Shown: one piece after another, positions 39,721-62,267 of the stretch
How the letters are laid out: every line of letters starts with the position of its first letter
Position numbering within the stretch: position 1 is the stretch's first letter
Source of the DNA: an uncultured Sphingomonadaceae bacterium
GTDB lineage: Bacteria; Pseudomonadota; Alphaproteobacteria; Sphingomonadales; Sphingomonadaceae
Length of the DNA: 64,000 bases
Reading direction: 5' to 3'
NCBI GenBank assembly: GCA_947497315.1
Contig: CANMFX010000004.1
Coordinates: 62,001-126,000 of the forward strand
The notes under the pieces: generated by a model
What the model saw: the letters and a program-made list of their open reading frames with translations, nothing else
What the model was told of the DNA's origin: nothing
The model's database searches: none
Translations under genes and position numbers: made by a program

Positions 39721-39737
39721 ATTACACCGTTAGTCAA
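39721..39737 (-). promoter_or_regulatory. 17-bp cluster element 1
   Basis: TTGACT-AACGG-TGTAAT upstream of the large TonB receptor. One mismatch to the -10-like half TATAAT. Confidence 0.65.
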
Positions 39738-39811
39738 TAGTAATTGACGAAACATCAAATTAGATATCTGGCTGAGAAATTCGGAATCGCGGCCTCAGCC
39801 GGTGACTGTCT

Positions 39812-41137
39812 TCAATTTCTTTTGTCAGCTATATTTTGTGCCGCGCGGAACACCCGGAGAAAATTTTCGCCCCAAATTTTCCTAATCTGCTCAGCTGAAT
39901 AACCGCGTTTTACCAGAGCGATGGTGACGTTCCCCGCCTCACTTGCATCCACAAATCCGGCAACGCCGCCGCCATGATTAAAGTCGCTGCCAATTCCGAC
40001 ATGGTCGATACCCACACGGTTCACGATATAGTCAATATGATCAACCAATCGATCGACAGAGCCCGGACCGATCACCTTCCGCATCGCAATCAGAAACGAC
40101 TGACGTTTTTCGGGATCAGGGATCTCCCAATAGAGTTCGTAAGGGTAAGAATAGGCATCAGGCAATCCGGCATCGCGTCGGACTTTCAGAATGGCGGCCA
40201 ATAATTTTGGGTCCGACAGATCGACAAGGTAGGCACCAAATGCTGCGAGATGAATAACGCCGCCGGTTTTCGCAATGAGATCGATTTCTTCATCGGACAG
40301 ATTGCGTGACACATTGGATAATTTGCGCGCGTTAGAGTGGCTGGCGATGACGGGAGATCGAGATAATTTTGTCGCCTGCAAAGTCGCTGCCTTCGACATT
40401 TGCGAAACGTCGATTATTCCCCCAAGCGCATTGATACGCCGTACCGCGGCCACCCCCAAAGGTGACAAGCCCCCATGCTCTTCGGCGATTTCATAAGACC
40501 GCTTCTCGGCAATATATAAAGGACGCGAACTGTCTGAAAAATCATTATGCCCCAAATGGTTGAGACCGAATAGACGAACTCCGGCGGCGTAGTATCGATC
40601 CAGTGCTTCAACCTGACCATTCAGTGATCGGGCATTCTGGAAGCCCAATAGAATTACGGTCTTTCCGCTAGCATTCAGACTTTCGATCTCGGCTGGCGAT
40701 GTTGCCAGGCCCAGATTCCGGTCTTGTTGCACCATGTTGGAAACCGCTGCCAGTTTTTCATCGGCCTCGGCTCTCGCCAAGGCGCGACCGTCTGTTGTTC
40801 TGGAGCCGGGCCCCACGGCGATCGACATGATGACAGCATCTACGCCCCCCGCTCGCAACTTGGCTGGAGCGACTTTGGATAGTCCATCGGCCCCCAGATA
40901 GGTTTTAGAGGTGGAAGGCAGGGCAATATCCGCATGGGCATCCAGCACCAGGCTCTGTTGATGAATTTCTCTCGCCCGTTCGACAAGAGCCGACTCGGCT
41001 TCGGGAACGGCCGATGCGGCGACAGGGCCGATCCCGGTCGTCGCGCATGCCGATAACATTGTCGCCGCGACAAAAGTCATCACAGCATGCAGAACTGGGA
41101 GAGCACCATATGAATATCTCGCAGGCATTTTTCGCAT
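39812..41137 (-). CDS. lipoprotein of the M19 (membrane dipeptidase) family
   Basis: About 441 residues from ATG 41137 (GGAGGA upstream). Lipobox LSAC (Cys31). Metal-site motifs of renal dipeptidase: DAHAD, ASHSNAR and GSDFNHGG. The acidic bridging residue is plausible but not certain. The family cleaves dipeptides, beta-lactams or related amides. It would act in the periplasm. It starts 4 nt after the alpha/beta hydrolase gene stops, in the same operon. Confidence 0.85.
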   Translation of the reverse strand: MRKMPARYSYGALPVLHAVMTFVAATMLSACATTGIGPVAASAVPEAESALVERAREIHQQSLVLDAHADIALPSTSKTYLGADGLSKVAPAKLRAGGVDAVIMSIAVGPGSRTTDGRALARAEADEKLAAVSNMVQQDRNLGLATSPAEIESLNASGKTVILLGFQNARSLNGQVEALDRYYAAGVRLFGLNHLGHNDFSDSSRPLYIAEKRSYEIAEEHGGLSPLGVAAVRRINALGGIIDVSQMSKAATLQATKLSRSPVIASHSNARKLSNVSRNLSDEEIDLIAKTGGVIHLAAFGAYLVDLSDPKLLAAILKVRRDAGLPDAYSYPYELYWEIPDPEKRQSFLIAMRKVIGPGSVDRLVDHIDYIVNRVGIDHVGIGSDFNHGGGVAGFVDASEAGNVTIALVKRGYSAEQIRKIWGENFLRVFRAAQNIADKRN

Positions 41138-41141
41138 CAGG

Positions 41142-42167
41142 CTATTCCTCCAAAAAATCGACAATTGCGCTGGTCGCACGCTCTGGTTCTTGCATCGATG
41201 TCCAATGATTGATTCCTTTTAACCGAACTGTTCGCATGTCCGGCCCGGCGTTGTCGACTTGATCAATAAGTTCAGGCACGAAAACCTGATCCTCTTCGCC
41301 CCAGATAAACAGGGCGGGCATGGTGATTTTCGTATTAGGTCCGGGCCAGAGATCGGAATCTGAAACATTGTCAAACGGTGGAATATTGGCGCGGTACCAA
41401 TTCATCGCCGCATAAAGCATTTCGTTGCTCGACAAGGCGTTTTGGAACAATTCCAATTCCTCCCGGGACAGATCACCGCGTTCGCCGAGTTTCCCGTAGG
41501 CTGAAACTCGCGCTGACTCGATCGCATTGCCGGACTTGAGCATTTCCAAAGTCGTACCCCGAAATCTCTGCATATATTGGTTTCGGCGCTGTTGCTCTTT
41601 GTTATTCGCCGCATACCTGAGGAACAGGTTAAGCGGAGGAGCACTCATTCCTACTACTTTATGTAGGCGATCTGGATAAGCCTGCGCATAGGACAGTGCC
41701 AATACCGAACCCCAGTCATGACCAATTAATATATATTTCTCGTCACCGCCTAGATGCCGAGAAAGCGCATCCAATTGGGAAGCCAGTTTGGCTATATTAT
41801 AAGGTTCCAGTTGATGCGGTTTGGCGGACAGGCCGGAACCGAGAGCATCCACGGCGACAACCCGGTACCGGTCTTTCAGCGCCTCCATCTGATCAAACCA
41901 ACTGTACCAGAAAGATGGAAATCCATGGTAAAAAATGATCAGTGGTCCCTCGCCTGCCTCAACATAATGCAAGCGGGTATCGCCGGAACCGAAATAGCCT
42001 TCCTTATATTTCACATCGCTTGAACCGTTGGCATTGGCGAAGACCACTGCTGGATCAGGGGGAACGGAATTCGTCGCTTTGGGGGTTTCGACAGCAGGAT
42101 TGGCTGACATACAGCTTGGCAGCGTGAGCAGGCCTGCAAGCAAAGTCACGCTCGTCAGAAATGCCAT
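41142..42167 (-). CDS. lipoprotein alpha/beta hydrolase (epoxide-hydrolase type)
   Basis: 341 residues. Lipobox LPSC (Cys19). Oxyanion region HGFPSFWYSWFDQ, nucleophile Asp in IGHDWGSVLAL, acid/His in WGEEDQVF and GINHWTSM. An Asp nucleophile fits epoxide hydrolases or haloalkane/fluoroacetate dehalogenases rather than esterases. AAGGAGAG precedes the ATG. Element 2 lies 52 nt upstream. A surface or periplasmic step is implied. Confidence 0.85.
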   Translation of the reverse strand: MAFLTSVTLLAGLLTLPSCMSANPAVETPKATNSVPPDPAVVFANANGSSDVKYKEGYFGSGDTRLHYVEAGEGPLIIFYHGFPSFWYSWFDQMEALKDRYRVVAVDALGSGLSAKPHQLEPYNIAKLASQLDALSRHLGGDEKYILIGHDWGSVLALSYAQAYPDRLHKVVGMSAPPLNLFLRYAANNKEQQRRNQYMQRFRGTTLEMLKSGNAIESARVSAYGKLGERGDLSREELELFQNALSSNEMLYAAMNWYRANIPPFDNVSDSDLWPGPNTKITMPALFIWGEEDQVFVPELIDQVDNAGPDMRTVRLKGINHWTSMQEPERATSAIVDFLEE

Positions 42168-42218
42168 TGTCTCTCCTTCGCCTGTGTCTTGGCCATTGCT
42201 TTATAAGGAAGGCTTGTT

Positions 42219-42235
42219 ATTATACTAATAGTCAA
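42219..42235 (-). promoter_or_regulatory. 17-bp cluster element 2
   Basis: TTGACT-ATTAG-TATAAT, perfect fit, upstream of the hydrolase / M19 operon and 70 bp before the divergent quinohemoprotein gene. Confidence 0.7.
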
Positions 42236-42304
42236 CAACAATAGGCTGCACCTGTCAAACCTTTCTTACAGGATGCTCCAGAACCAAAGGATGCAGAAAA
42301 TATA

Positions 42305-44167
42305 ATGCGTCTATTTATGTCATTAACGGCAACGCTGATATTGGCATCCGTTGGCTTATCTGGCTGTCAGCAGAAAGATCCCGAACCTGAGATCGTAGAT
42401 TCCGCACAGGCTCAGGTGGGAGGCAATCCTGGCGAAAGACTTTACCAGAAACATTGTGCCGCATGCCATGATGGCGGCACTGCAGAAGCGCCAACCAAAG
42501 CTGCTATCCAGTTAAATGGCGTTGAATCGATCAGAGCCTCGCTTTCTACCGGTACAATGAAAGAACAGGCGTCGATGATGACGCCGATCGAAATACGGAT
42601 CATTGCCGACTATCTGGCCAGTCCAAGCAGCGAGAGCGCATTAGCCAATGCAAAAAAGCACCAGTGCACAGGCCAGTTAAAACTCTCCAATCCGCTTTGG
42701 AACCGGTGGGGAAATAGCAAACGCAATGTCCGTTTCCAGCCCGCTGTCAATGCCGGTATCACTGCGAAGGACGCGCCGAATCTGAAATTGAAATGGGCCT
42801 TTGGTTTCCCGGGTTCGGCGCGCGCGCGCTCCCAACCCGCAGTCACCGCGGAAGCCATATTTACAGGGAGCCAGAGCGGGCTATTTTATGCGCTGGATAC
42901 CAAGACCGGCTGTGTCTGGTGGACATTTGAAGCCAAGGCAGAGGTTCGTAACGCACCGACCATATCGACCGACAAAAATGGCTATGCGAAGACACTCTAT
43001 TTCGGGGATGTCGATGCCAATGTCTATGCTGTCGATGCCAAAAATGGAGAGTTGATTTGGACACGCTCTGTCCGAGACCATCCGGTTGGAACGATAACGG
43101 GCTCGATCACGCTCCATAAAGGGCGGCTCTATGTTCCGATGTCTTCGCTTGAGATTATCAACGCCTATCTTCCAGACTATGAATGTTGCACCTTTCGAGG
43201 TGGCGTGATGGCACTGGAAGCGAAATCGGGTGAACCAGTTTGGCGTTTTCACACGGTTCCCGAGCCAAAAAAGACGACAAAGAATAAAGCGGGTGCTCAA
43301 AATTACGGACCATCGGGCGCGCCAATCTGGTCCACTCCAACTGTCGATGCCAAGCGCGGGTTGCTCTATGTCGGGACGGGAGAGAATTATTCCTCGCCCG
43401 CCAATGACAAGAGCGATGCCATCATCGCATTACGGCTTGATACAGGAGCGGTTGAGTGGATCCAGCAGACCATTTCGGGTGATGCCTGGAACGCGGCCTG
43501 CGGGAAAAATGGTTCACAGGTCAACTGTCCTAAGGAAGACGGGCCGGACTTTGATTTTGGTGCTCCGCCGATTTTGACGACCATGGCCAATGGCAAGGAT
43601 ATCATTCTCGCGGGGCAAAAATCAGGAATGCTCTATGGCATGGATCCCGATGCAGAGGGCAAAATCCTCTGGGAAACGCGGGCCGGCATGGGCGGCTTTA
43701 ATGGCGGCGTCCACTGGGGAATGGCGACCGACGGCAATACGCTGTTTGTCGGGATAGCCGATACGCCAGGCAACCGGTTCGCCACGGGCCCATCACGTCA
43801 AGGCTTGCACGGATATGACCCCGCAACGGGCAAAGCTTTGTGGAGCAAATTTGAACCCAATGTCTGTGAAGAAAAAGCGCACAAATGCATGACCGCATTG
43901 TCTGCCCCGCCAACCACCACGTCAGACGTTGTTTTCGCTGGCGCACTCAATGGCATATTGCGTGCCTATAGCGCCGATGGCGGCGAGATATTGTGGAGCA
44001 CCGACACACGCCGGGAATATAAAACTCTGAATGACGTTAGCGCGCGTGGTGGCTCGATAGATTCCGCAGGCCCTGTCGTCGCAGGCGGCCTGCTTATCGT
44101 CAATAGCGGCTATGATAAATTCGGGCAGATACCAGGCAATGTCATGCTGGTTTACAGCGCCGACTGA
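42305..44167 (+). CDS. quinohemoprotein (PQQ + cytochrome c) dehydrogenase lipoprotein
   Basis: 620 residues. Lipobox LSGC (Cys21). Heme c site CAACH at 51-55 in an N-terminal cytochrome domain, followed by an eight-bladed PQQ propeller (repeated blade motifs such as SGLFYALDTKTGCVWWTFEA, ANVYAVDAKNGELIWTRS). This layout is known from polyvinyl-alcohol dehydrogenases. It oxidises an alcohol in the periplasm and passes electrons on through its own heme. VOC gene starts 11 nt after. Confidence 0.9.
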   Translation: MRLFMSLTATLILASVGLSGCQQKDPEPEIVDSAQAQVGGNPGERLYQKHCAACHDGGTAEAPTKAAIQLNGVESIRASLSTGTMKEQASMMTPIEIRIIADYLASPSSESALANAKKHQCTGQLKLSNPLWNRWGNSKRNVRFQPAVNAGITAKDAPNLKLKWAFGFPGSARARSQPAVTAEAIFTGSQSGLFYALDTKTGCVWWTFEAKAEVRNAPTISTDKNGYAKTLYFGDVDANVYAVDAKNGELIWTRSVRDHPVGTITGSITLHKGRLYVPMSSLEIINAYLPDYECCTFRGGVMALEAKSGEPVWRFHTVPEPKKTTKNKAGAQNYGPSGAPIWSTPTVDAKRGLLYVGTGENYSSPANDKSDAIIALRLDTGAVEWIQQTISGDAWNAACGKNGSQVNCPKEDGPDFDFGAPPILTTMANGKDIILAGQKSGMLYGMDPDAEGKILWETRAGMGGFNGGVHWGMATDGNTLFVGIADTPGNRFATGPSRQGLHGYDPATGKALWSKFEPNVCEEKAHKCMTALSAPPTTTSDVVFAGALNGILRAYSADGGEILWSTDTRREYKTLNDVSARGGSIDSAGPVVAGGLLIVNSGYDKFGQIPGNVMLVYSAD

Positions 44168-44178
44168 GGAAAAGACCC

Positions 44179-45279
44179 ATGGTCAGATCATATATTGCTA
44201 CTCTTTGTGTGAGCTTGGCCCTCGGCTTGGGCCTGACATCTTGCGTGCAGACAGCTAACACTGAATCGGCCGCCACGGCGACCACTCCGCCGCGCATCGT
44301 GCAAACGCCATTTTTCCGTCCGGCCACTTTGGGCGATACCAGAATCAAAGGCGTGCGGTTCATTGGCAAGACAGTGTCAGACATTGATCAGAGTATCGCC
44401 TTTTATCAGCATGCGGTGCCGTTTGAATTGGTCAGCCGATATCGTGTCGCCGCCAGCGACATCTATCTTCCCGGGATGACTTCCAAGCAGCATGGAAATG
44501 TAGAAGTTGCGCTGATTAGAACCCCAACGGTTTTTGTAAAACTGGTTGATTTTGATCCGGACGCGAAAGCACCTCCTTATGCCAAACCGGTCATTGGCCC
44601 TGGATATACGCATATTTGTTTCCAATCCCCGGCGACCGACCCCGCCCTGCCAAAATTCGAAAAAAAGGGCCTGGATATGGTCTCCCGAAATGCGCCGGTC
44701 GATTTGGGCGGCTATGGCGTTACCTATGCCTATGGTAGAGATCCCGACGGCACGATCATCGAGAATGAGACCGTCGATAGACCCCGCCGACAGGACAGCG
44801 CCTGGATAACCCATATCGGCGGAGCAACGTCGGATGCCGACCGGATCGCTGATTTTTACACCAAGTTTATTGGTTACGGTGCGAGGCGGCGCGGTGAATA
44901 TTCGAACTTTCCGACTATGGACAATATTGTCGCAATCGATGGTGTGGCCCTGCGCAGCGCATGGTTTGCCGTCCGCAATCTCGAGCTTGAATTTTGGGAA
45001 TTTGTCAAACCGGCAACGCCTGACCGTAATGTGCCTGCAAAAGTCGACGAGATCGGCTATAATATGACTGCCTTTGAAGTAACTGATGCAGATGCAGAGC
45101 GCGATAGGCTGGCCAAGCTAGGTATCAAAATGATGGGCCCGGCCAAGAGCACCAAAGGCTGGAAAATATACTATGCCCATGATCCCGACGGAAATGTGAT
45201 CTCCATTCAGGAAAACGTCTCTGCACCGAAATCAGAATCGATTGATGACATGATGTGGATCGACCCAACGACCTTTTAG
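44179..45279 (+). CDS. lipoprotein with two VOC (glyoxalase/dioxygenase) domains
   Basis: 366 residues. Lipobox LTSC (Cys22). Two VOC modules: RFIGKTVSDIDQSIAFYQHA ... HICFQSPA ... YAYGRDPDGTIIENE, and THIGGATSDADRIADFYTKF ... YYAHDPDGNVISIQE. VOC proteins include extradiol dioxygenases, epimerases and isomerases, usually cytoplasmic; a lipid-anchored exported one is uncommon. It is related to the gene at 56352. It stands in an apparent operon with the quinohemoprotein. Confidence 0.85.
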   Translation: MVRSYIATLCVSLALGLGLTSCVQTANTESAATATTPPRIVQTPFFRPATLGDTRIKGVRFIGKTVSDIDQSIAFYQHAVPFELVSRYRVAASDIYLPGMTSKQHGNVEVALIRTPTVFVKLVDFDPDAKAPPYAKPVIGPGYTHICFQSPATDPALPKFEKKGLDMVSRNAPVDLGGYGVTYAYGRDPDGTIIENETVDRPRRQDSAWITHIGGATSDADRIADFYTKFIGYGARRRGEYSNFPTMDNIVAIDGVALRSAWFAVRNLELEFWEFVKPATPDRNVPAKVDEIGYNMTAFEVTDADAERDRLAKLGIKMMGPAKSTKGWKIYYAHDPDGNVISIQENVSAPKSESIDDMMWIDPTTF

Positions 45280-45296
45280 GAGCTGCAATTTTGTTG

Positions 45297-45311
45297 ACCG
45301 CCTTCGCGGTT
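45297..45311 (+). terminator. short hairpin after VOC gene, possible weak terminator
   Basis: ACCGC-cttcg-CGGT just after the stop, with no T run. It may slow read-through into the TetR gene or act as part of an operator. Confidence 0.3.
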
Positions 45312-45328
45312 CATCAACGAAAGATTAT

Positions 45329-45982
45329 ATGGTAGCAATTGAAACAATGAACAATGAAACTCCCGTCAAAAGACGGCGCCTTAGTCCAGAAAAGCGCAAG
45401 TCGTTGATCCTAGATCATACGGCAGAGATTGTTGCACGCGATGGTGTGGCAGTTTTGAGTATGGAGCTCATCGGCAAAGAAGCGGGAATTAGTAAGTCGC
45501 TCGTCTACACCTATTTTGACAGCCTGACGGAACTGCTCCGCGCGCTCCTATATCGCGAACTAAAGCGCTTGCGGCGATTGCAGGTACGGGAGGCAGAGAA
45601 AGCGAAGACTTTCGAAGACCTGGTCCGCGGCATTACACATCAATATCTCAAATATATTGAGGAACGCGGGCTAATCATTGAACGCCTCCAAACCGAACCC
45701 AGCGTATCGGGCGGCCATGATCCTACAGACTATAGCCGCGATGATGCGGTTGATTATATTGCCGATATTGTGGCCAATAATTTTGATATTCCAAAGGATG
45801 CAGCCAGGGCGGCAAGTGATATATCCTTTGGCCTGCCGGCGACTGCGGGGGCCTATTATCTGCACAGCGATATGAGCAGGGAAGAGATCGAAAACATCAC
45901 CGTCACAATGATATTGGGTTCGTTAAATGCCGTTCAGAGTGACTATAACATGAGGCAGCAACCTTTGAAGCGAAAGCCCTGA
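45329..45982 (+). CDS. TetR-family regulator (cluster paralogue A)
   Basis: 217 residues. HTH: RRLSPEKRKSLILDHTAEIV, VLSMELIGKEAGISKSLVYTYF. The C-terminal domain (RGITHQYLKYIEERGLIIERLQTEPS) is close to the protein at 60710 (RRLSPEVRKNIILDKTAELI ... THTYLKHVDETGDHIQRLMREPS). The two are paralogues and the best candidates to bind the 17-bp elements. A second ATG is at 45347. Confidence 0.85.
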   Translation: MVAIETMNNETPVKRRRLSPEKRKSLILDHTAEIVARDGVAVLSMELIGKEAGISKSLVYTYFDSLTELLRALLYRELKRLRRLQVREAEKAKTFEDLVRGITHQYLKYIEERGLIIERLQTEPSVSGGHDPTDYSRDDAVDYIADIVANNFDIPKDAARAASDISFGLPATAGAYYLHSDMSREEIENITVTMILGSLNAVQSDYNMRQQPLKRKP

Positions 45983-46016
45983 GGTCTTTGGCTAATACCG
46001 GGATCTGAGGGACGGA

Positions 46017-46805
46017 CTACAGCGGGTGGATGGAATGACCTCCATCGATGACCAGTGATTGACCAGTCATGAAGTTACTTTGCTGGGACGCCAGATAGAC
46101 GGCGATGCCCTCCATGTCTTCCAACTCCCCAACCTTACCCGAAGCAGATCGGCGCTTACATGCATCCCGGAATATTTGCGGCGTATTTAGCGACATGTCC
46201 GTCTCAATATATCCTGGCAGGATCGCGTTAACTTGAATATTTGCCTGCCCTAGTTCGATTGCCAGAGCACGTGTCAAACCGGTGACTGCCGCCTTGGTGG
46301 TTGAATAACCACTCCCCATTGGCATGCCCATTATCGCAGCAGCAGAAGAGGTTACGATCAACTTTCCGCCCTGCCCACGTTCCAGAAGATGAGCGATGAC
46401 CGGTTTATAGGTGTTCACTACACTGGTAAGGTTCATATCCACCGTCGCCGTCCACGCTTCCCCGCTCGTCTTGTGCAACATGCCCGCAGACCCCCCGCCT
46501 GCATTGGCGAAACAGCTATCCACTTTTTGAAAGCGTTGCAGCGTTGCACCAAAGGCGGCATCAACTTGCTCGGCATCGGTGACATCACAAGAAAACACCG
46601 CTGCATCGCCGCCCATATCATGCAGTTCCTTCAATGCTGCTTCATTTTTTCCCGGATTGCGACCCCAGATTGCAACAGCGGCACCTGCTTTGACCAATCC
46701 TTTGGCCATCGCCAAACCAAGGCCGCCATTGCCGCCCGTCACCAAAGCGACATGGCCGGTTAAATCGAATATAAAATCTATCCTTACGCTGAATTGGAAG
46801 AACAC
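46017..46805 (-). CDS. short-chain dehydrogenase/reductase
   Basis: About 263 residues from GTG 46805 (approximate start; the open frame reaches 46943 without a good ribosome binding site). Cofactor motif TGGNGGLG, ANAGGG, catalytic SSAAAIM...YSTTKAAV (Tyr-x3-Lys), and a C-terminal DGGHS. Classical NAD(P)-dependent oxidoreductase of alcohols/ketones, cytoplasmic. Element 3 lies 58 nt upstream of the GTG. Confidence 0.82.
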   Translation of the reverse strand: MFFQFSVRIDFIFDLTGHVALVTGGNGGLGLAMAKGLVKAGAAVAIWGRNPGKNEAALKELHDMGGDAAVFSCDVTDAEQVDAAFGATLQRFQKVDSCFANAGGGSAGMLHKTSGEAWTATVDMNLTSVVNTYKPVIAHLLERGQGGKLIVTSSAAAIMGMPMGSGYSTTKAAVTGLTRALAIELGQANIQVNAILPGYIETDMSLNTPQIFRDACKRRSASGKVGELEDMEGIAVYLASQQSNFMTGQSLVIDGGHSIHPL

Positions 46806-46862
46806 CTGATCGTCTCGTGAGCGAGTGGCCAACAAAACAAAGTATTGCGTCACTTCATTGTT

Positions 46863-46879
46863 ATTGGAAATAAAGTCAA
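46863..46879 (-). promoter_or_regulatory. 17-bp cluster element 3
   Basis: TTGACT-TTATT-TCCAAT upstream of the SDR gene. The right half is degenerate, but the outer TATTG...CAATA symmetry is kept. Confidence 0.55.
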
Positions 46880-47111
46880 TAGTGATATTGGTGATTGATA
46901 GATAAGGCATGCCCAGTCGAGATAACCAAGTGCACAAAACCATGATCCCAAACCATATCTTCTCAACACGGTTGCGGACGGCGTATCGTCATAAGCTGGA
47001 ACCGCCTGAGTTTATGCAAACCAAAATTCAAAAGATCGGGGCACACGGATGCGCGGTGGCTGGAACGCCGGCTGATCTTCAAGATAGTCCATGCCTAATC
47101 CAACAAGATTA

Positions 47112-47128
47112 TTGACTATATTTTCAAT
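47112..47128 (+). promoter_or_regulatory. 17-bp cluster element 4
   Basis: TTGACT-ATATT-TTCAAT, 40 nt before the GST start. Extends to a near-perfect 20-bp palindrome, TATTGA-N8-TCAATA. Confidence 0.6.
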
Positions 47129-47168
47129 AGAAGCTTAAACAATGGCAGCTTTAGGATGGGGGCGTAGG

Positions 47169-51239: not shown

Positions 51240-51313
51240 TAGTGCTAGAAGCGTTTGACCCGACAAACGGCTATCTGGATCGACTCCAATACCATTGTGC
51301 TTTGCATAATTTT

Positions 51314-52315: not shown

Positions 52316-52341
52316 ACCATGACCGCGGAAATGGCTCATAA

Positions 52342-53307: not shown

Positions 53308-53319
53308 GCAGCCTGCGGG

Positions 53320-53757: not shown

Positions 53758-53774
53758 TTTACGGTTTATATAAT
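53758..53774 (+). promoter_or_regulatory. 17-bp cluster element 6
   Basis: TTTACG-GTTTA-TATAAT, 86 nt before the MFS start and 84 nt from the divergent SnoaL start. Identical over 17 bp to element 9. Confidence 0.7.
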
Positions 53775-53860
53775 AAGTGATGCTGCTGTCCAAGCCAATT
53801 CTCGGCAAAAGATGCAATGTCAGGAGACCGGATACATTGGGAGGGGGAAGTGGCATCGAC

Positions 53861-55351
53861 ATGAGTGTGGCGCAAACCAGATTGCCGATGAGGATTAAAA
53901 TGGCTTACGGCGTCGGTGCCGTTGGCGAGCAAATCTTCTTCGGGATGTTCAACACTTTCATCACGATCTACTATAATCAGGCACTGGGTCTTTCCAATAG
54001 TCTGATCGGTGTAGCAATCATGATTGCATTGCTTGGAGATGCGGTGTCAGATCCGGCGGTTGGTATGATATCGGATCGCTGGCGTTCGCGTCTTGGCAGA
54101 CGACATCCCTTCCTTTTCGCTGCACCGATACCGGTCGCCATATCCGTCTATTCCGTTTTCTCACCGCCCGAATTTCTGGTCAATAGTGTAGGCGATGGAG
54201 CGGCATGGCAATTTGCTCTTTTTGCATGGCTTTGTGTCTGGACGATTTTGGCCAGACTGTTTCTGACACTTTACACAATTCCGCATTTTGCACTTGGTGG
54301 AGAGCTGACCAAGGACGCCAATGATCGCTCGCGATTGTTCAGCATCAATTCGGTATTTGGTTATATGACGGGCGCCTTGTTTGCGTTCACCGCCTGGGGC
54401 TATTTTTTGGCAGGCGAGACGCTCAATGCAAACGGAGATTCCATTCCGAAGCATCTCGATGCAACAGCATATGGACCTTTGGTCTTCACGGCTTCCGGGA
54501 TTATATTGGTTGTAATATTGCTCAGTGCCTGGGGTACATATGGGCGGGTTTCTACATTGAGCGCACCACCCGAACCAAAAGGCAAGCTCAGCCTGAGAAC
54601 TTATTACCGTGATTTGAAAAATGCGGCAGAGAACAGAAACTATCTGTTTCTGATCGTCGGCTTCTTCTTCTTCATGCTCTCGGTCGGATTGAATGAAGTG
54701 TTTATTGTTTTTGTAAACACCTATGTCTGGGAACTGGGCACTGAGGATATGCGTTGGTTTGGACTGGCAGCCGTGCCCGCCATCATCATCGGTGCCCTGA
54801 TGGCACCTGCTTTGATGCGGCGTTTTGACCGCCGACCGGTCTTGCTTGTCGCTATTACTGGTGTTGTGGTTGCCGCTCAATTGCCGCTCAATCTGCGGTT
54901 GCTGGGATTATTCCCCGAGAATGACTCCAGCATCCTGTTACCATTGTTACTCTTTCATATGGCTGTGACCGCCGGGAGCGTAGCTGTCGCCGCGGTTTCG
55001 GTGCTTTCCATGCTAGGAGACATATCGGACCAGATCGAGCTTGAAAAAGGATTGCGGCAAGAAGGCTTGATCTATTCCGCCCGGACCTTTTTCGCTAAAG
55101 CTTCCAATTCGGCCGGGCACTTTCTGGCTGGCGTTTTGCTGGATCTGTTCGTGCGGATTCCATTTAATGCAGTGCCAGGTCAATTGGATGACGGCGTGGT
55201 TTTCCGATTGGCTCTCGTGGGCGGTCCGATCATGGGATTGGCCGCGATTTTGGCGATCCCCGTATATTCCCAATATCGACTGCCGCGATCGGAACACAAA
55301 CAGATACTAGAAAAACTGGCTGCCAGAAAAAGACATGAAGGAGACGAGTGA
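53861..55351 (+). CDS. MFS transporter of the GPH (glycoside-pentoside-hexuronide) family
   Basis: About 496 residues from ATG 53861. Twelve membrane helices; the GPH signatures GVGAVGEQIFFGMFNTFITI, DAVSDPAVGMISDRWRSRLGRRHP and ELTKDANDRSRLFSINSVFG. Takes up a solute with a cation across the inner membrane, here probably the cluster's imported intermediate. Starts at 53777/53780 would lie on the promoter element, so they are less likely. Confidence 0.85.
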   Translation: MSVAQTRLPMRIKMAYGVGAVGEQIFFGMFNTFITIYYNQALGLSNSLIGVAIMIALLGDAVSDPAVGMISDRWRSRLGRRHPFLFAAPIPVAISVYSVFSPPEFLVNSVGDGAAWQFALFAWLCVWTILARLFLTLYTIPHFALGGELTKDANDRSRLFSINSVFGYMTGALFAFTAWGYFLAGETLNANGDSIPKHLDATAYGPLVFTASGIILVVILLSAWGTYGRVSTLSAPPEPKGKLSLRTYYRDLKNAAENRNYLFLIVGFFFFMLSVGLNEVFIVFVNTYVWELGTEDMRWFGLAAVPAIIIGALMAPALMRRFDRRPVLLVAITGVVVAAQLPLNLRLLGLFPENDSSILLPLLLFHMAVTAGSVAVAAVSVLSMLGDISDQIELEKGLRQEGLIYSARTFFAKASNSAGHFLAGVLLDLFVRIPFNAVPGQLDDGVVFRLALVGGPIMGLAAILAIPVYSQYRLPRSEHKQILEKLAARKRHEGDE

Positions 55352-56349
55352 CCTTGGAGAATACCACTGTAAGATTGGCGGAGCGTCCCGAGGGCGAAAT
55401 TAATGACCGCACCTTCGTTATCGCAAGCGAGCCAGTTCCTTCCTTAAGCGAAGGAGATATCCGCGTGGCGCTGGAATATTGCTCGGTCGATCCGGCGATG
55501 CGCACATGGCTGTCGGAAATCACAAGCTATGTTCCGCCAATGGCGATCGGTGAGTTGATGCGATCTGGTGGCATTGGGGAAATTGTCGAAACAAAATCAG
55601 CTGACTTTCAAGTCGGCGACAAGGTGATGGGACGGTTTGGCATCCAGTCCGTTTATTCTGGTTCAACGTTGGACGTGATCAAGCTCGAGTCCACCAATAT
55701 CGATATCCGCCACTATCTTGGAGGGCTGGGTGGAACGGGCCTTGCGGCCTATTTTGGATTGCTGGATGTTGGTGCGCTCAAGGACGGAGAAACCGTCGTC
55801 GTTTCGGCCGCGGCCGGCGCCGTCGGTCATATCGTCGTCCAGATAGCGAGATTGAAAGGCTGTAAGGTTATCGGCATCGCTGGCGGAGCAGAAAAATGCA
55901 GCCGCGTTGTTGAAGAATATGGTGCGGATGCTTGTATCGACTATAAATCGGAATCCCTTGCTGAGAGAATGAAAAACTTATGCCCGGACGGGATTGATGT
56001 CTATTTCGATAATGTCGGAGGCGAGACGCTAGAGGCCGCCCTGGACAATATTGCACTGGGTGCGCGCATCGTCATTTGCGGGGCCATAGGCGAATATGAC
56101 AATCTGGATAGCGTGATCGGACCACGCAACTATCTTAACCTGATCGGCAAGGCCGCTCGTATGCAAGGATATGTGAACTTTCATTTTGCCGAACATTATG
56201 AAACTGCACGGGCGGATTTGATAAAATGGAGTCAGGAAGGCAAATTACAATTCCGTGATCAAATCGAACAGGGAATTGAAAATTTTCCGACAATATTGAA
56301 GATGTTGTTCGCCGGAAAAAATAACGGCAAATTGTTGCTGAAAGTCTGA
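55348..56349 (+). CDS. NADP-dependent MDR-family oxidoreductase (PTGR/CurA-like)
   Basis: 333 residues; GTG start overlapping the MFS stop by 4 nt. YCSVDPAMRTWL and PPMAIGELMRSGGIGEIVET are typical of the leukotriene-B4 / prostaglandin reductase branch, and the cofactor loop is SAAAGAVGHIVVQIARLKGC. No zinc Cys cluster. It reduces C=C bonds of enones. Co-transcribed with the MFS transporter. Confidence 0.9.
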   Translation: MTLENTTVRLAERPEGEINDRTFVIASEPVPSLSEGDIRVALEYCSVDPAMRTWLSEITSYVPPMAIGELMRSGGIGEIVETKSADFQVGDKVMGRFGIQSVYSGSTLDVIKLESTNIDIRHYLGGLGGTGLAAYFGLLDVGALKDGETVVVSAAAGAVGHIVVQIARLKGCKVIGIAGGAEKCSRVVEEYGADACIDYKSESLAERMKNLCPDGIDVYFDNVGGETLEAALDNIALGARIVICGAIGEYDNLDSVIGPRNYLNLIGKAARMQGYVNFHFAEHYETARADLIKWSQEGKLQFRDQIEQGIENFPTILKMLFAGKNNGKLLLKV

Positions 56350-56351
56350 TA

Positions 56352-57296
56352 TTATTGTCTCAATGCATCGGTCCGGCTACATATCCCGATATCATCTAAG
56401 GCGCTGATTGTTTGAGAAAAACCTTTCTGAGGTTCCAGCAACTCAATGATGTTCCCATCAGGATCACGCGCAAGCTGAATGCGAGCATTGCAGGTCTCGA
56501 CAGGTTCGCATATCGCCGTGGCACCGGCCTGGATCATATGCTCGAAGTCATGGTCTAGATCATCGGTCTCAAGACAGATATGTGTATAACCCAAATCGAG
56601 CATGGTCGTGCACCTGTGCTTGGACGGCGATAGCGGCGAATGAAACTGCCAAAACTCGAGCAACATATTGTCAGTTGGCAACCATGCACCTTCAAGCTGA
56701 GCGTCGTTTAAACCACCCATCTTATCTGACTGTGGACCCGGTCCTACCATCGAGCGGCCCTGCAGCTCCGTTCCCAAAATCGTACGGTAGAAGTTTATCA
56801 ATCGATCAAGCTTGGGCGTCACAATAGCAACATGACCGATCCAGGTGGATTGCTCTGCGGGCGCAAAGGGCAGTCCTTCGATTTCGATTATATTGCCTTC
56901 GCTATCTCGCGCATAAGCATATTGATTGCCGGTGCCCAGATCCAACGGGTCGGCAATCAAGCTGCCACTGGCGTTCCAGACGCCATCAGCCAACATATCA
57001 CAATCCCGATTCTGGAGGCAGAAATGTCGAATACCGGATGTGTTGATGGGCGGAACGGTATCTTCCTTGCGATCAATTACCGAACCTTTTGCGGTGCACT
57101 GGATATATCCATTGGGGCCCGCGATTAGCGCGATTTCTATGGGTAAGCCTTCCTTGTTCAGGGCATCTCGCAAGGAATTATCCGCATCCAACTTATGCCG
57201 TGATACAACTGAAAAGCCGGCAACATTTTCAAAAAAACCAGTGGCATTGTCTAAATCGGCAACGCCCAATCCAATATGATGCAGCCCAGAAATCAT
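56352..57296 (-). CDS. double-domain VOC protein (cytoplasmic)
   Basis: 314 residues, two VOC modules: GLHHIGLGVADLDNATGFFE and WIGHVAIVTPKLDRLINFYR ... YTHICLETDDLDHDFEHMIQ, LARDPDGNIIELLEP. No signal peptide, unlike its relative at 44179. Possible extradiol dioxygenase, isomerase or lyase. Convergent with the MDR gene, 2 nt apart. Confidence 0.82.
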   Translation of the reverse strand: MISGLHHIGLGVADLDNATGFFENVAGFSVVSRHKLDADNSLRDALNKEGLPIEIALIAGPNGYIQCTAKGSVIDRKEDTVPPINTSGIRHFCLQNRDCDMLADGVWNASGSLIADPLDLGTGNQYAYARDSEGNIIEIEGLPFAPAEQSTWIGHVAIVTPKLDRLINFYRTILGTELQGRSMVGPGPQSDKMGGLNDAQLEGAWLPTDNMLLEFWQFHSPLSPSKHRCTTMLDLGYTHICLETDDLDHDFEHMIQAGATAICEPVETCNARIQLARDPDGNIIELLEPQKGFSQTISALDDIGICSRTDALRQ

Positions 57297-57321
57297 ATTG
57301 GATCGCTTTCAAAAATCGTGA

Positions 57322-57366
57322 CGCTGCAACCGGCTATCTTGGGAGAGTATATACCGGTTTGCAGCG
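57322..57366 (-). terminator. stem-loop after the TonB receptor gene
   Basis: CGCTGCAACCGG / CCGGTTTGCAGCG with one bulge and a 20-nt loop, followed on the minus strand by ACGATTTTTG. It lies between the receptor stop and the VOC gene. Confidence 0.55.
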
Positions 57367-57386
57367 CCACATACGCCCCCTGGCGA

Positions 57387-59681
57387 TCAGAATTTAGTTC
57401 TCAGAGTCACATTCCAGGTGCGTTCTTCGCCCAGGAACTGCGATCGGGTTGTCCCGTCCAGAGCGTTGAATGTAGAACCAAAAATGAAATGCTCATAATC
57501 TTTGTCGAAAACATTCTCGACCGAGAAAGTGATGCCATAGCGACTGTCCGGACCATCCAAGCCGACACGAAGATTTAGCAATCCGTACGAGTCAACAAAG
57601 GTCGTCGGATCCCGGGCCAGGCTTGTGTTTTTTGAAGATTGCCAGGTCCATTCACCACGCAGGAACCCTTCCAGGTCGGAATTGCCGAGACTTGTCCGAT
57701 AGTCTCCTACGACTGAATAGAAGAACCGGGGGTTGTCCCGATAACGGATCCCGACCAGATCAGGCCGAGCGGCAAACTGGTTGATCTCAATATCATTGTA
57801 AGTGAAGCTCCCAGAAAGTGTGAAGCCAGGCAATGCCGCGGGCTTCAGGAAAAAGTCCGCTTCAATGCCCTTGGCCCTGATCTTGTCAATCGAGAGGTTG
57901 AGGGTGACTCCGTTGGCATCGGTTGCAATCCCCTGAACATCCCGAACATCCTGATGATAGAGCGCAACATTCACAGCAAGCGCATCATCAAGCAGGTTAG
58001 CCCGGATGCCGGCCTCCCAAAGTGTAGGAATTTCCGGCGGCAAGACCGGCAGGCCGCCTGGAGTCGTTATCGCGGCCACATTGACGCTTTCTGCAACATC
58101 AATGCCAGGACCTTTATATCCCCGCGACCAGGACAAATAAGTCATCACCTGATCAGACCAGATATAGCGACCAATAACCCGACCGGAAAGATTTTCGTCC
58201 GTCACTCTTTGGCTGCCGGTCACGTCCGCCCCGAAAAAGGCGCCAAAAGGTGCGCCCTGAAGGATTGGACTCGCGACACGTGTATAGGTCGCATCGAGCT
58301 TCTCGTTCGTATAGCGACCGCCCAGCACCAGGGATAATTTATCCGTAACATCCACCGTCGTTTCGCCAAAAATTGCAAAACTGTCGGTTTCGACTGTGCG
58401 ATCGGCATTTGTGCGTACGTTGAAAAATGGCGGAAAGGGAAGCGCCAGCTCAATATCAACTTGGCCCTGTGCATCTAGATCCTGATGAAAATAGAACAGG
58501 CCTGCAACAATCGAAACATTATCGGTGACTTTGCCGTCCAGCCGCAGTTCCTGACTGTACTGATCGGTAGAAGAAACGGTGCCATTGCGATTGTTGACAT
58601 TGGAGTTGGAAACACCATCCGCTTCATTAAACTCGTCAATCTCCCAGTGCCGCCATGACGAGATGGACGTCAGAGTTAGATCGCCCAACTCGTGTTCGAC
58701 CGTCAGTGCGAGACCATAGGCTTCCGATTCCTGGAGGATATTTTCGTCGAAGACAGGCACTGATCGATTTCCGGGTCCCGGAACGACGCCGAATTCTGCA
58801 AGCGCATCCTGTAGCTGGACCGCACCGGGGTTCAGCGCAAAGAGGATGGCCGGTGAGGGATCACCCGCGACCCGATAGGTCGGAAGGCAGCAGTTATTCT
58901 CTTCTGTGACATAGTCACCTGCAAGCGTGATGTTCAAATCTTCATTGGGCTTGAAAAGCAGTTTTGCGCGCAAGGACAGTTGTTCCTTGTCGTTCAGATC
59001 CGCTTCTCCGGGAATGGGGTTGTCATAGACGCCATCCCTTGTGTTGTATGTTCCGCTGATGCGGGCCGCGAGCTTGTCCTCGACCAGCGGGCCGGTGACC
59101 GTACCGCGGATCTTGATCTCGTCGAAGGTCCCATAGGAAATGTCGGCTTTGCCGCCAAATTCAAATTCCGGTGCTTTGGTCCTGATATTGATCACGCCAG
59201 CAGAGGCATTTTTCCCAAACAGCGTGCCCTGCGGCCCCTTGATGACTTCGATCGACTCAACATCAACAAAGTCAAAAAACCCTTGCGCTTCGCGGCCAAG
59301 GACAACGCCATCGATAACGGTTGCGACGCTGGATTCAAATCCGTCACTGAAACTGAATGTTGAAATACCGCGGATCTTGGAACCTGTCGCCCGCGTCGTG
59401 TTGAGTGGGGTCAAGTCAAACCCGGGAACAAAACGAACGATATCGCCGACCTCCACGAAACCGGTTCGCTCCAAAAATTCTTCTGAGATCACGGATACTG
59501 CGACAGGCGTTTCGAAGAGGGATTCTGCCGTCTTCCGTGCAGTAACAACAATGACACTTGAATCGGCGGATTGATCTTCTCCGGCCTGCTGATCCCCGTT
59601 GACTTGAGCCATTAGCGGCGTGACGGGTAATGAGGTGGTGGCTAGCACCGCTGCCAATATTTTCTTCCTGGTAAGTTTCAT
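57387..59681 (-). CDS. TonB-dependent receptor, second of the catabolic cluster
   Basis: 764 residues. Signal VLATTSLPVTPLMAQ. Plug IVVTARKTAESLFETPVAVS, KIRGISTFSF, VDVESIEVIKGPQGTLFGKN. Barrel ends in WNVTLRTKF. GGGGAGGAA precedes the ATG. Element 7 lies 100 nt upstream. Much shorter than the receptor at 36675, so the two may recognise different forms of the substrate. Confidence 0.93.
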   Translation of the reverse strand: MKLTRKKILAAVLATTSLPVTPLMAQVNGDQQAGEDQSADSSVIVVTARKTAESLFETPVAVSVISEEFLERTGFVEVGDIVRFVPGFDLTPLNTTRATGSKIRGISTFSFSDGFESSVATVIDGVVLGREAQGFFDFVDVESIEVIKGPQGTLFGKNASAGVINIRTKAPEFEFGGKADISYGTFDEIKIRGTVTGPLVEDKLAARISGTYNTRDGVYDNPIPGEADLNDKEQLSLRAKLLFKPNEDLNITLAGDYVTEENNCCLPTYRVAGDPSPAILFALNPGAVQLQDALAEFGVVPGPGNRSVPVFDENILQESEAYGLALTVEHELGDLTLTSISSWRHWEIDEFNEADGVSNSNVNNRNGTVSSTDQYSQELRLDGKVTDNVSIVAGLFYFHQDLDAQGQVDIELALPFPPFFNVRTNADRTVETDSFAIFGETTVDVTDKLSLVLGGRYTNEKLDATYTRVASPILQGAPFGAFFGADVTGSQRVTDENLSGRVIGRYIWSDQVMTYLSWSRGYKGPGIDVAESVNVAAITTPGGLPVLPPEIPTLWEAGIRANLLDDALAVNVALYHQDVRDVQGIATDANGVTLNLSIDKIRAKGIEADFFLKPAALPGFTLSGSFTYNDIEINQFAARPDLVGIRYRDNPRFFYSVVGDYRTSLGNSDLEGFLRGEWTWQSSKNTSLARDPTTFVDSYGLLNLRVGLDGPDSRYGITFSVENVFDKDYEHFIFGSTFNALDGTTRSQFLGEERTWNVTLRTKF

Positions 59682-59780
59682 ATTTTCCTCCCCTGCAACT
59701 TTTCTCGACAGCGATCTTGGTCTGCTGAAGGCGTTGATGGACTTAGATTTCTATTATACGAATCCTCACTAGTCAATTTA

Positions 59781-59797
59781 ATTATATAGACCGTCAG
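59781..59797 (-). promoter_or_regulatory. 17-bp cluster element 7
   Basis: CTGACG-GTCTA-TATAAT, 100 nt upstream of the TonB receptor ATG. Confidence 0.65.
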
Positions 59798-59858
59798 TTA
59801 AAAATGGCAGATATGTGACATATTCGCCATATGGAAGCTCCGGACGACCGACTCTTAA

Positions 59859-59875
59859 TTGACGGTTGCTATAAT
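59859..59875 (+). promoter_or_regulatory. 17-bp cluster element 8
   Basis: TTGACG-GTTGC-TATAAT, perfect, 46 nt upstream of the SDR ATG. It and element 7 are divergent across 61 bp. Confidence 0.7.
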
Positions 59876-59921
59876 AATATGCGACAGCGACAAAGGGTCT
59901 GAAGGGAAAGCGCATTGAGAT

Positions 59922-60692
59922 ATGGCAACGCAATTTAAAGACAAAACAGCTCTCGTAACCGGCGCAGCACAAGGTATTGGTCTGGCGACGGTCAAGAAGT
60001 TCGCAGCTGAAGGTGCGAATATTTTTTTAATGGATATCGATCCTTCTTTGCTTCGAGATGCTGCGTCGAAAATTGAAGCCAACGGAACAATTGCAGTTCC
60101 TGTCGCTGGAGATGTTGCCAATAAAGACACATGGGACAAGGTCAGGAGGTTGATTGGAGAGATGTCCGGATCGCTTGATATCATCATCAACAATGCAGGA
60201 ATATCCGGACCAAGCAGCCTGCTGGAAGATTATCCCGATGATGACTTCGACAATGTCATGCGCGTGAACTGTCGCGGCGTATTTCTGGGAATGAAATATG
60301 GGGCGAACATGATGAACGATGGAGGTTCAATTGTGAATATATCATCCGTTTCAGGGATGGGCGGCGGACAAAGGCTGGTCGCATATAACGCAAGCAAACA
60401 TGCCGTTATTGGTATGACGAAGGTTGGCGCTTCGGAGCTTGCTTCGCGGAATATTCGCGTCAATGCAATCTGCCCCGCGATGACCGAAACGCAAATGATG
60501 CAGAGCCTAGAAATAGACAAATCCCAAGCAGAGATAAGGGAGATACGTGGGCATTTTACTGATATGATTCCGTTAGGACGTTATGCAGATCCTTCGGAAA
60601 TCGCCGATGTGATAGCCTTTCTGGCCAGCGACAGTTCTTCGTTTGTGAATGGTGCGGTCATACCGGTAGATGGCGGATTAAAGGCACAGTAG
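59922..60692 (+). CDS. short-chain dehydrogenase/reductase
   Basis: 256 residues. TGAAQGIG cofactor motif, GDVANKDTW, NNAGISGPSSLL, catalytic ISSVSGMGGG...YNASKHAVIGMTK, and C-terminal PVDGGLKAQ. Classical NAD(P) SDR; oxidises or reduces a secondary alcohol/ketone. It is separate from the SDR at 46017 and not a near duplicate. Confidence 0.88.
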   Translation: MATQFKDKTALVTGAAQGIGLATVKKFAAEGANIFLMDIDPSLLRDAASKIEANGTIAVPVAGDVANKDTWDKVRRLIGEMSGSLDIIINNAGISGPSSLLEDYPDDDFDNVMRVNCRGVFLGMKYGANMMNDGGSIVNISSVSGMGGGQRLVAYNASKHAVIGMTKVGASELASRNIRVNAICPAMTETQMMQSLEIDKSQAEIREIRGHFTDMIPLGRYADPSEIADVIAFLASDSSSFVNGAVIPVDGGLKAQ

Positions 60693-60709
60693 CCGGCCAA
60701 ATTTGCTCA

Positions 60710-61360
60710 TCAGGCAGATTTGCGGGGCGTCTTCCTGACTTGCCGACTGTAATTGTCTTTCATGGCTCCTATGCTGCCCATTGCCAGATTGAGTGTTATT
60801 TCTTCAATGCGCTTTCGACTGGCGACACCCCGCGCGATCATGTCGCCAGCTGCTCCTGTCATGCCCATCGCAATTTCCGTAGCCAGTGCCGCTGTTTTCG
60901 GAGGAATGTCGAAAGTTTTTGACACTTTCTTTGAAAGCGTTTCGACCACTCGCTGTCTATCCTTGCGATCAAACTCTTCAAACACCTCGGCGACAGATGG
61001 TTCGCGCATCAGCCGCTGTATATGGTCACCCGTCTCATCAACGTGCTTCAGGTATGTGTGGGTGGTCCGGCGGATATAATCCTCAAAGTCCGAAGCCTCG
61101 GCCACTGCCTGCGCTTGCAAATCGATGAGTTTGTTCTGTTCGCGGATCAGCAATGCCCCGAGCAGTTTTGTCTGGTTAGGGAAATAGACATAGATTAAAG
61201 GCTTGCTGACACCGACCTCTCTTGAAACGCGCTCCATGGACACGGCCGATACGCCTTCCTTGGCGATCAACTCGGCGGTCTTGTCCAAAATAATATTTTT
61301 GCGAACTTCCGGACTGAGTCTGCGGTTTTTCTGTTTTTTGTTTTTTGCGGCGACTGACAA
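60710..61360 (-). CDS. TetR-family regulator (cluster paralogue B)
   Basis: About 216 residues. TTG 61360 behind GGAG (6 nt) is the best start; the frame is open to 61384. HTH: NRRLSPEVRKNIILDKTAEL, VSMERVSREVGVSKPLIYVYF. A paralogue of the protein at 45329. A palindrome CAATTATAATTG (61382-61393) lies just upstream, a possible site for autoregulation. Inducer unknown. Confidence 0.85.
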   Translation of the reverse strand: MSVAAKNKKQKNRRLSPEVRKNIILDKTAELIAKEGVSAVSMERVSREVGVSKPLIYVYFPNQTKLLGALLIREQNKLIDLQAQAVAEASDFEDYIRRTTHTYLKHVDETGDHIQRLMREPSVAEVFEEFDRKDRQRVVETLSKKVSKTFDIPPKTAALATEIAMGMTGAAGDMIARGVASRKRIEEITLNLAMGSIGAMKDNYSRQVRKTPRKSA

Positions 61361-61381
61361 TTGAAACTCCAACCTGTCATT

Positions 61382-61393
61382 CAATTATAATTG
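61382..61393. promoter_or_regulatory. 12-bp perfect palindrome upstream of TetR gene
   Basis: CAATTATAATTG, 22 nt upstream of the proposed TTG start. The following TATTATTACAAT may belong to the promoter. It does not match the 17-bp element. Confidence 0.4.
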
Positions 61394-61481
61394 TGGTCGT
61401 ATTATTACAATAAGCGCATCAGTGGTACAATTATTTTCAACAGTTTTGCCCCGCAATTTTGCTGAGGCGCAAGCTTCGAGA

Positions 61482-62213
61482 TTATGCAGCAACAAGGCCT
61501 GCGTCAGTGTTGCTGTTGTCCAGGCGCAAACACCGTGGGTACAGGCCATATTCGATCTGGATTTCTTCTAGTGGACGATCAAGCTGATGCTCAAAATGCA
61601 CAAACTGGAGGTTTTTGGCCTCCCGGCCAAAAGTCCAACCATCGGAAATCGCATCCATTGCCGGCTTCATAAGGTCGGGTTCCAAATAGGTCATATGAGC
61701 CGTGACCACAGCGATCCACATACCCGCATATGGGTAGCTCATTTGCGCCAGTCCAAAAGCCTGAAGCGCGATCTCTCCAACCGGATCCGGATCATAGCCG
61801 GTCAGCACATGGTGCATGTCATGTGTCTGATATCCCCGCAGCACTTTGTACTGGATCACATCAGGCATTCGCTGCAACCTGCCATCGCTCTTTATCTCTT
61901 CATGCAACTCGCGATAGCCAACGGCTAATTGTTCTCCCAGTTCATTGTCGACAATGAACTTGTAATAGGCTTGACCGAGAGTGCCGGGACCGCAGCCTTC
62001 CAGTCTCTCCATGTCAACCGGGGGTGCCAGCCAGCGTTGCTTTGCAAGCGGCCCTTGATCAGGATGGTCTTCTATGGCTGCGACATATTTTTCAATAGCA
62101 TCGTGAGGGGCTTTCTCCCACCAATCGTTAAAGAGCAGGTGCACACCATAGGCATCGTAATCGTCCACGGAGGTCAGGAATTTTTCCGCAAATTCGCGAT
62201 CCAATTTCGGCAT
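61482..62213 (-). CDS. Coq4-family protein
   Basis: About 243 residues from ATG 62213 (AAGGA, 7 nt). The Coq4 metal motif is QTHDMHHVLTGYDPDPVGE (His-Asp-x2-His and Glu), followed by a helical AFGLAQMSYPYAGMW segment. Eukaryotic Coq4 acts in ubiquinone ring processing. In this catabolic setting it may perform an oxidative or decarboxylating step on a ring, which is inference. Divergent from the alpha/beta hydrolase gene. Confidence 0.78.
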   Translation of the reverse strand: MPKLDREFAEKFLTSVDDYDAYGVHLLFNDWWEKAPHDAIEKYVAAIEDHPDQGPLAKQRWLAPPVDMERLEGCGPGTLGQAYYKFIVDNELGEQLAVGYRELHEEIKSDGRLQRMPDVIQYKVLRGYQTHDMHHVLTGYDPDPVGEIALQAFGLAQMSYPYAGMWIAVVTAHMTYLEPDLMKPAMDAISDGWTFGREAKNLQFVHFEHQLDRPLEEIQIEYGLYPRCLRLDNSNTDAGLVAA

Positions 62214-62250
62214 TTTCATTCCTTTCCAATCTGCGATTGCTTGATTTTAA

Positions 62251-62267
62251 TTTACGGTTTATATAAT
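62251..62267 (+). promoter_or_regulatory. 17-bp cluster element 9
   Basis: TTTACG-GTTTA-TATAAT, 86 nt upstream of the alpha/beta hydrolase and 37 nt from the divergent Coq4 start. Identical to element 6. Confidence 0.7.

Follow-up and report, generated by a model that had tools for sequence, protein, structure and literature searches.

Which protein reads a short element that is repeated throughout a catabolic gene cluster, and does the element define one regulon or several? The question is raised by a 64,000-nucleotide stretch of DNA from an uncultured Sphingomonadaceae bacterium (GenBank assembly GCA_947497315.1, contig CANMFX010000004.1, positions 62,001 to 126,000), referred to here as the window. 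In this stretch, TTGACK-N5-TATAAT (K = G or T) recurs before genes of a 22.5-kb cluster that also encodes two paralogous TetR proteins, TetR1 and TetR2. The initial annotation listed nine such sites and proposed a single regulon, with the right half of the element possibly serving as a -10 box. On sequence grounds, the element sits at the core of an imperfect dyad of 22 bp with an asymmetric center, TTATTG-N10-CAATAA. This dyad is best taken as an operator for one clade of TetR regulators, and the cluster appears to hold two separable modules, TetR1 with the left and TetR2 with the right. The term operator denotes a predicted operator throughout, TetR binding being deduced from comparison. The constant 5-nt gap between the halves is the fixed operator length.

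All nine site coordinates given by the initial annotation are correct. The pattern is exact at three of them (42219, 51223 and 59859), four differ from it by one mismatch, and two by two mismatches (46863, with the right half TCCAAT, and 47112, with TTCAAT). Allowing two mismatches, the window contains 16 matches, a count attained by one of 100 shuffles, whose mean is 6.28 +/- 2.85. Genome-wide (3.42 Mb), all three exact matches and 7 of the 21 matches with at most one mismatch fall inside the 22.5-kb stretch, which makes up 0.66% of the genome (binomial 6e-11, for a pattern picked after the sites had been seen). With up to two mismatches, the genome total of 404 equals that of a reversed-pattern control (396), and the loose matches elsewhere are therefore noise. 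The variant TTKACK-N5-TATAAT has six exact matches in the genome, five of them in the cluster, so that the earlier statement that the element is absent outside the cluster was nearly right, with one match lying elsewhere.

A matrix made from the window's own sites was circular and was superseded by motif discovery on relatives only. The de novo search took in 109 intergenic regions, drawn from nine loci (L033-L041) that represent nine other genera, and left the window data out; its best solution is TATTGACGATttgTcCAATAAa. Applied to the window, the relatives-only matrix gives 13 best hits, of which 11 are the nine listed sites and two weaker sites that had been overlooked, at 39742 (+) and 59750 (-). 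The remaining two lie at 41249, inside a hydrolase gene, and on the reverse reading of the site at 47110. The sites in the window are:

39718..39739, minus strand: operator A, before TonB receptor 1 (first reported at 39721); orthologous site in the same-genus genomes L031 and L091
39742..39763, plus strand: second operator beside A in opposite orientation, newly listed; fifth best blind hit in the window
42216..42237, minus strand: operator B, between the divergent hydrolase-M19 and quinoprotein-VOC1-TetR1 genes; conserved in L031, L091, L094 and L096
46860..46881, minus strand: operator C, before SDR1; conserved in L030 and L091
47110..47131, plus strand: operator D, before the glutathione S-transferase gene; best hit in window and genome
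51221..51242, plus strand: operator E, before the PhyH and aldo/keto reductase genes; conserved in L022-L024
53756..53777, plus strand: operator F, before the MFS_2 and CurA-like genes; conserved in L022-L024
59750..59771, minus strand: partner of operator G in a tandem pair before TonB receptor 2, newly listed; hit of the relatives-only matrix
59778..59799, minus strand: operator G, before TonB receptor 2; conserved in L022-L024
59857..59878, plus strand: operator H, before SDR2; present in L022 and L023, diverged in L024
62249..62270, plus strand: operator I, between the divergent Coq4-TetR2 and hydrolase genes; conserved in L022-L024

By our reading of the gene map, these sites serve about eleven units, because two of them (42216 and 62249) separate divergent genes. 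The called starts at 39758, 46943, 51242 and 53777 lie upstream of the element or no more than a few bases from its end. The true starts of TonB receptor 1, whose called open reading frame overruns operator A, and of SDR1 are probably downstream of operators A and C, respectively. The tandem arrangement at 59750/59778 recurs with the same 28-bp step in L035. No site was found at the divergent pair 48338-49513 / 49562-50716 within the cluster.

In an alignment of 53 sites, the information is confined to one 23-bp block that includes the outer arms of the dyad, with nothing clearly conserved outside it. Positions A6, T14 and A17 are invariant, although the 53 sites were chosen by matrix score and the invariance is partly a product of that choice. 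The outer six pairs are complementary in a mean of 3.87 of 6, as expected of the dyad-shaped operators of TetR proteins. Covariation of the arms within a site is weak at best: in two of the six pairs, 21 and 24 of 500 shuffles did at least as well as the real sites, and in the others most did. Searches with Rfam gave nothing at gathering scores.

The distribution of the motif follows that of the regulators. Within the family, 11 of 199 genomes have relatives of TetR1 (E<=1e-25), while relatives of TetR2 occur in 27 of 397 genomes (E<=1e-30), those with names being Sphingorhabdus sp. EL138 and two uncultured Sphingomonadaceae; a plasmid search with TetR1 gave no match at 1e-25. A model built from 27 of the relatives' sites (R1) places the nine original sites within its best eleven matches when run unfiltered on the window alone. 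On the whole genome (E<=10, 150 of 1107 candidates scored), it returns seven matches, six in the cluster and the seventh 2.6 kb from a fourth TetR paralogue, C3:37191. At E<=0.5, matches are found in 13 of 14 TetR-bearing genomes and in none of 14 without a TetR (two of the same genus, G089 and G203, and 12 others without a TetR2 search match), a comparison weakened by the fact that absence in these 14 was taken from loose first-pass searches, scored in part. Furthermore, 25 of the 28 matches have a clade TetR no more than 14 kb away. When the DNA model was run across the order, 12 of 396 genomes matched at E<=0.02, and seven of these had not gone into building the model. In five of these seven (G278, G424, G453, G463 and G603), the match lies inside a cluster of the same make-up, and a clade TetR is present in four of the five clusters, none being seen on the short contig of G463. 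The regulators and their operators are found in two or more families within a single bacterial order.

Several observations weigh against so simple a correspondence. The center of the site is asymmetric, pair 7/14 being complementary in 0 of 53 sites. The genome scan with R1 recovers six of the nine original sites, missing 53758, 59859 and 62251, and gives no match beside the third TetR paralogue; in the order-wide scan, for which the filters are stricter, the own genome, G153 and G243 have no match at E<=0.02. In G375 a TetR is present but R1 finds nothing, and three matches of the E<=0.5 comparison (G278:C2, G309:C2 and G236:C1) have no TetR anywhere near. The order-wide matches of G233 and G474 are in other surroundings, with nothing similar in the former and only general SDR homologues in the latter. 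Genome scan, surroundings and presence/absence comparison nevertheless support the initial proposal that the site is specific to the cluster and read by a regulator, the two paralogous TetRs being candidates for this role. The sites are real, specific and conserved among related bacteria, while regulons of this general kind are common.

The two candidate regulators are 42% identical:

45329..45982, plus strand: TetR1, proposed regulator of the left module; TetR_N (PF00440) 38.0 bits (cut-off 24); recognition helix ISKSLVYTYF
60710..61384, minus strand: TetR2, proposed regulator of the right module; PF00440 49.1 bits (cut-off 24); recognition helix VSKPLIYVYF

The two halves of the cluster occur separately in relatives. 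G394, the genome of L024, carries TetR2 with the right genes and right sites and lacks TetR1, while G153 and G243 carry TetR1 with the left genes and left sites and lack TetR2; both regulators are present in G397 and G398, which are near relatives. Two modules found apart in this way replace the single regulon of the initial annotation. If TetR1 and TetR2 instead bound all sites redundantly, overlapping motifs would be expected, as is the case, and two of the five left sites indeed carry T at position 16 (T16), the base otherwise typical of TetR2-type loci. G127 and G204 also mix genes of both halves, with a single clade TetR found in each, and the one TetR found in G127 sits with genes of both halves. 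Yet modules and their sites separate in relatives, and position 16 differs between the two types of site, which makes one shared regulon rather unlikely. Because two of the five left sites carry T16, the two regulators of the proposed separate modules may still cross-react.

The difference at position 16 is paralleled by one in the recognition helix. TetR2 and its kin (G204, one TetR each of G236 and G272, and G397-G399) read SKP, and the other members of the clade SKS, SKA or SKT, except G218 (SRS); SNP is found in a distant TetR that does not belong to the clade. In a structure model of TetR2, the proline/serine residue is the second of the predicted helix 61-67. The matching residue of classical TetR contacts operator bases. 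Sites were counted in a scan with positions 15 and 16 masked, leaving out L022, L023, L115 and L116, which nearly duplicate the window or other loci of the own genome, L089 and L090 (same genome as L024), and L092, L097 and L126-L132, with L088 as background. At score 14, proline-type loci have T16 in 25 of 26 sites compared to 13 of 68 in the rest, and at score 16 in 21 of 21 compared to 8 of 58. C is found at this position (C16) in 45 of the 68 sites of serine/alanine/threonine-type loci. No hit >=13 was obtained in 135 kb of background. The single proline-type site without T16 (L024 6159) is intragenic. This gene-internal site-like sequence is conserved between L022 6161, L023 6162, L024 6159 and L025 1204, and probably reflects coding constraint. 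A GGT at positions 8-10 was considered as a TetR2 signature and rejected, as it is not in the sites of G204, G236 and G272, the shared feature being position 16.

In the tree, proline-type TetRs fall into two groups, requiring two changes and carrying a long-branch warning, so that the Fisher value of 3e-12 for position 16 overstates independence. The link between helix residue and base 16 is best described as an apparent association with few independent events. A specificity switch can tentatively be suggested, for which we would give somewhat less than even chances: serine or proline at the second helix residue would pair with C or T at position 16 and separate neighboring sister regulons, the T also completing a perfect -10 box, with operator and promoter evolving as one sequence.

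This brings up the question whether the right arm is a promoter element. The initial annotation had it as a -10 box with a regulator half-site directly before it. Such a composite promoter would agree with T16 in 25 of 26 TetR2-type sites, 21 of these 25 containing an exact TATAAT, with the invariant T14 and A17 of the 53 sites, and with the finding that all 25 intergenic sites of proline-type loci have a same-strand gene start downstream. The same-strand ratio is 25:0 in TetR2-type loci versus 64:12 in other loci (p 0.035, sites without a near start excluded). However, C16 dominates in the other loci, the information lies in one dyad-armed block, and neither a -35, expected 16-18 nt upstream of a -10, nor a second -10 is conserved around the 53 sites; the idea of TTGAC as the -35 of a downstream -10 was dropped, no second box being conserved there. 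Comparison of orientation between sites with exact TATAAT and all other sites was not significant (p 0.17), and an argument for a -10 from fixed orientation holds in TetR2-type loci only, not overall. A promoter scan of 44500-63000 gave 24 predictions compared to 20.1 +/- 3.9, which is chance level; one of them ends in the TATAAT of site G. The composite promoter is therefore doubtful as a general rule, whereas in proline-type loci the right arm of the operator may double as a -10.

The placement of sites relative to transcription units points to an operator as well. Across 40 loci, scored at a looser cut-off of 13, sites precede 35 of 42 TonB-receptor units and all 14 quinoprotein units. For the TonB units with a site, the orientation is the same in 14, opposite in 11 and both in 10, while 12 of the 14 quinoprotein units have a site facing away; this mixed orientation fits an operator. 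Among units with a site, tandem sites (<=60 bp) are found in 11 of 35 TonB units versus 4 of 74 others; in three of those four cases, the genes are divergent from a TonB unit. Two TonB receptor homologues of the window that lie outside the cluster, 17644-20112 (-) and 30735-33302 (-), have no sites and form natural negative controls.

We hold it to be quite likely that TetR1 and TetR2 bind the 22-bp operator and repress their own modules until a ligand releases them. Each regulator would bind as a dimer at the promoters of its own module and repress the uptake genes, encoding TonB receptors, together with the breakdown genes, with a compound of the pathway as the presumable inducer. The cluster would then consist of two neighboring modules with diverged sister regulators. 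Each TetR is perhaps self-controlled, since in the window a site stands before a gene that lies upstream of the TetR gene on its strand. Self-control does not appear to be general, as a site stands directly before the TetR gene in 8 of 41 TetR units scored.

The structure model of TetR2 (mean predicted local distance difference test score 79.3, from four sequences), in which residues 61-67 form one helix, supports a TetR fold. Most of the 50 matches listed in a structure search carry TetR-family regulator titles (best E 5.5e-06), and the model resembles FasR, Rv0078 and KstR, DNA-bound forms included, the FasR chains being best among the matches listed. The equivalog cut-offs of NCBIfam are missed by both TetRs: FasR (39.1 and 44.7 of 330 bits), KstR (23.5 and 29.7 of 280 bits) and BetI, TIGR03384 (34.4 and 31.8 of 201.3 bits). 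FasR is an activator, and its NCBIfam model is named as such. The structural likeness would thus allow the window TetRs to activate from these sites, the more so as no -35 is conserved upstream and some promoters may need help. Activation seems improbable, since sites near gene starts in either orientation fit a block better and the FasR model scores just 39 and 45 bits, far from its cut-off. Reading of the element by another DNA-binding protein or a sigma factor is more improbable still, as its presence tracks the TetR clade and base 16 goes with the TetR recognition helix.

Dyad operators at a catabolic cluster are known from TetR/AcrR regulators of lipid and steroid metabolism, such as KstR, FasR, FadR (Bacillus) and Rv0078, with which the window TetRs share the TetR_N domain and, as modeled for TetR2, the TetR fold. 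They differ in the NCBIfam scores given above, which are far below cut-off, and in an operator tied to TonB receptors, which to our knowledge is not one known for these families. Two sphingomonad systems can also be compared. The bsd I bile-salt cluster of Caenibius tardaugens likewise contains a TetR gene with predicted palindromic operators, ATAGGGCCATTG and GCATGCGGGATGC, but these bear no resemblance to the present motif (PMC12882949). In Sphingobium sp. SHPJ-2, the repressor PheR couples uptake and breakdown, as is predicted for the window, but PheR belongs to the IclR family and has the key motif GCAACG, whereas the window regulators are TetRs (PMC13273656). Searches of the open-licence PubMed Central literature listed no description of the present operator. 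A TetR regulon family is well supported and of a known kind; what is new is the operator, its breadth and the helix-operator association. Defined from sequence alone, the family marks TonB-linked breakdown modules, and the motif offers a means of delimiting them in further genomes.

The genes of the cluster are as follows:

36675..39758, minus strand: TonB receptor 1 (PF00593, PF07715)
39812..42167, minus strand: alpha/beta hydrolase and M19 dipeptidase-like genes (PF00561, PF01244)
42305..45279, plus strand: beta-propeller protein of the pyrroloquinoline quinone (PQQ) type with a cytochrome c domain (quinoprotein), and VOC1 (PF13360, PF01011, PF13442, PF00903)
46017..46943, minus strand: SDR1 (PF13561)
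47142..48002, plus strand: glutathione S-transferase-like gene (PF00043)
51242..53307, plus strand: PhyH-type dioxygenase and aldo/keto reductase (PF05721, PF00248)
53777..56349, plus strand: MFS_2 symporter and CurA-like reductase (PF13347; NF058644 314 bits, below the cut-off of 440)
56352..59681, minus strand: TonB receptor 2 and VOC2 (PF00593, PF00903)
59922..60692, plus strand: SDR2 (PF13561)
61482..62219, minus strand: Coq4-like gene, on the same strand as and upstream of TetR2 (PF05019)
62354..63694, plus strand: alpha/beta hydrolase, PETase/PAF-AH-like (PF12740, PF03403)

This gene set would suit a pathway that takes up and oxidizes a hydrophobic alcohol or ester. The quinoprotein is above the Pfam cut-offs of PF01011 and PF13360 and misses those of the NCBIfam PQQ alcohol dehydrogenase subfamilies (TIGR03075, 118.7 of 480.05 bits; TIGR03074, 61.9 of 832.65 bits). 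It is 37% identical to a PQQ protein on a plasmid of Sphingopyxis sp. 113P3, in what we take to be the polyvinyl-alcohol locus, where genes for a TonB receptor, an SDR and PhyH are also nearby. Unlike in the window, no TetR is among the 20 features listed for that 26-kb stretch, the gene table of which is incomplete. The presence of a Coq4-like gene (61482-62219) in a breakdown cluster is not confined to the window, homologues being found beside clade TetRs in several genera. The divergent hydroxylase-like and arylesterase-like pair (48338-50716) recurs beside a TetR of the clade in L104.

The own genome contains four TetR paralogues. Both that at C4:138017 and that at C3:37191 have related genes beside them, and the sites nearby are related in form but not the same. 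With four paralogues and their dissimilar operators, this single genome offers a compact natural set for the study of how duplicated TetRs cease to recognize each other's sites. The third paralogue (L025 12017-12625, G000:C4:138017-138625) lies 12 kb to the right of the window end; its neighbors are TonB, VOC and SDR homologues, and its differing site is ATTTGACTAATGATACATTTAA. The fourth, C3:37191, is in L028 (G000:C3:27001-47000), where tandem sites 22 bp apart precede a TonB receptor; the same locus has a 67% homologue of the window's fatty-acid-hydroxylase-like gene. Among the TetR homologues of other genomes, G309:C2:31727-32338 and G292:C3:8691-9311 each have one in-frame stop codon inside the match.

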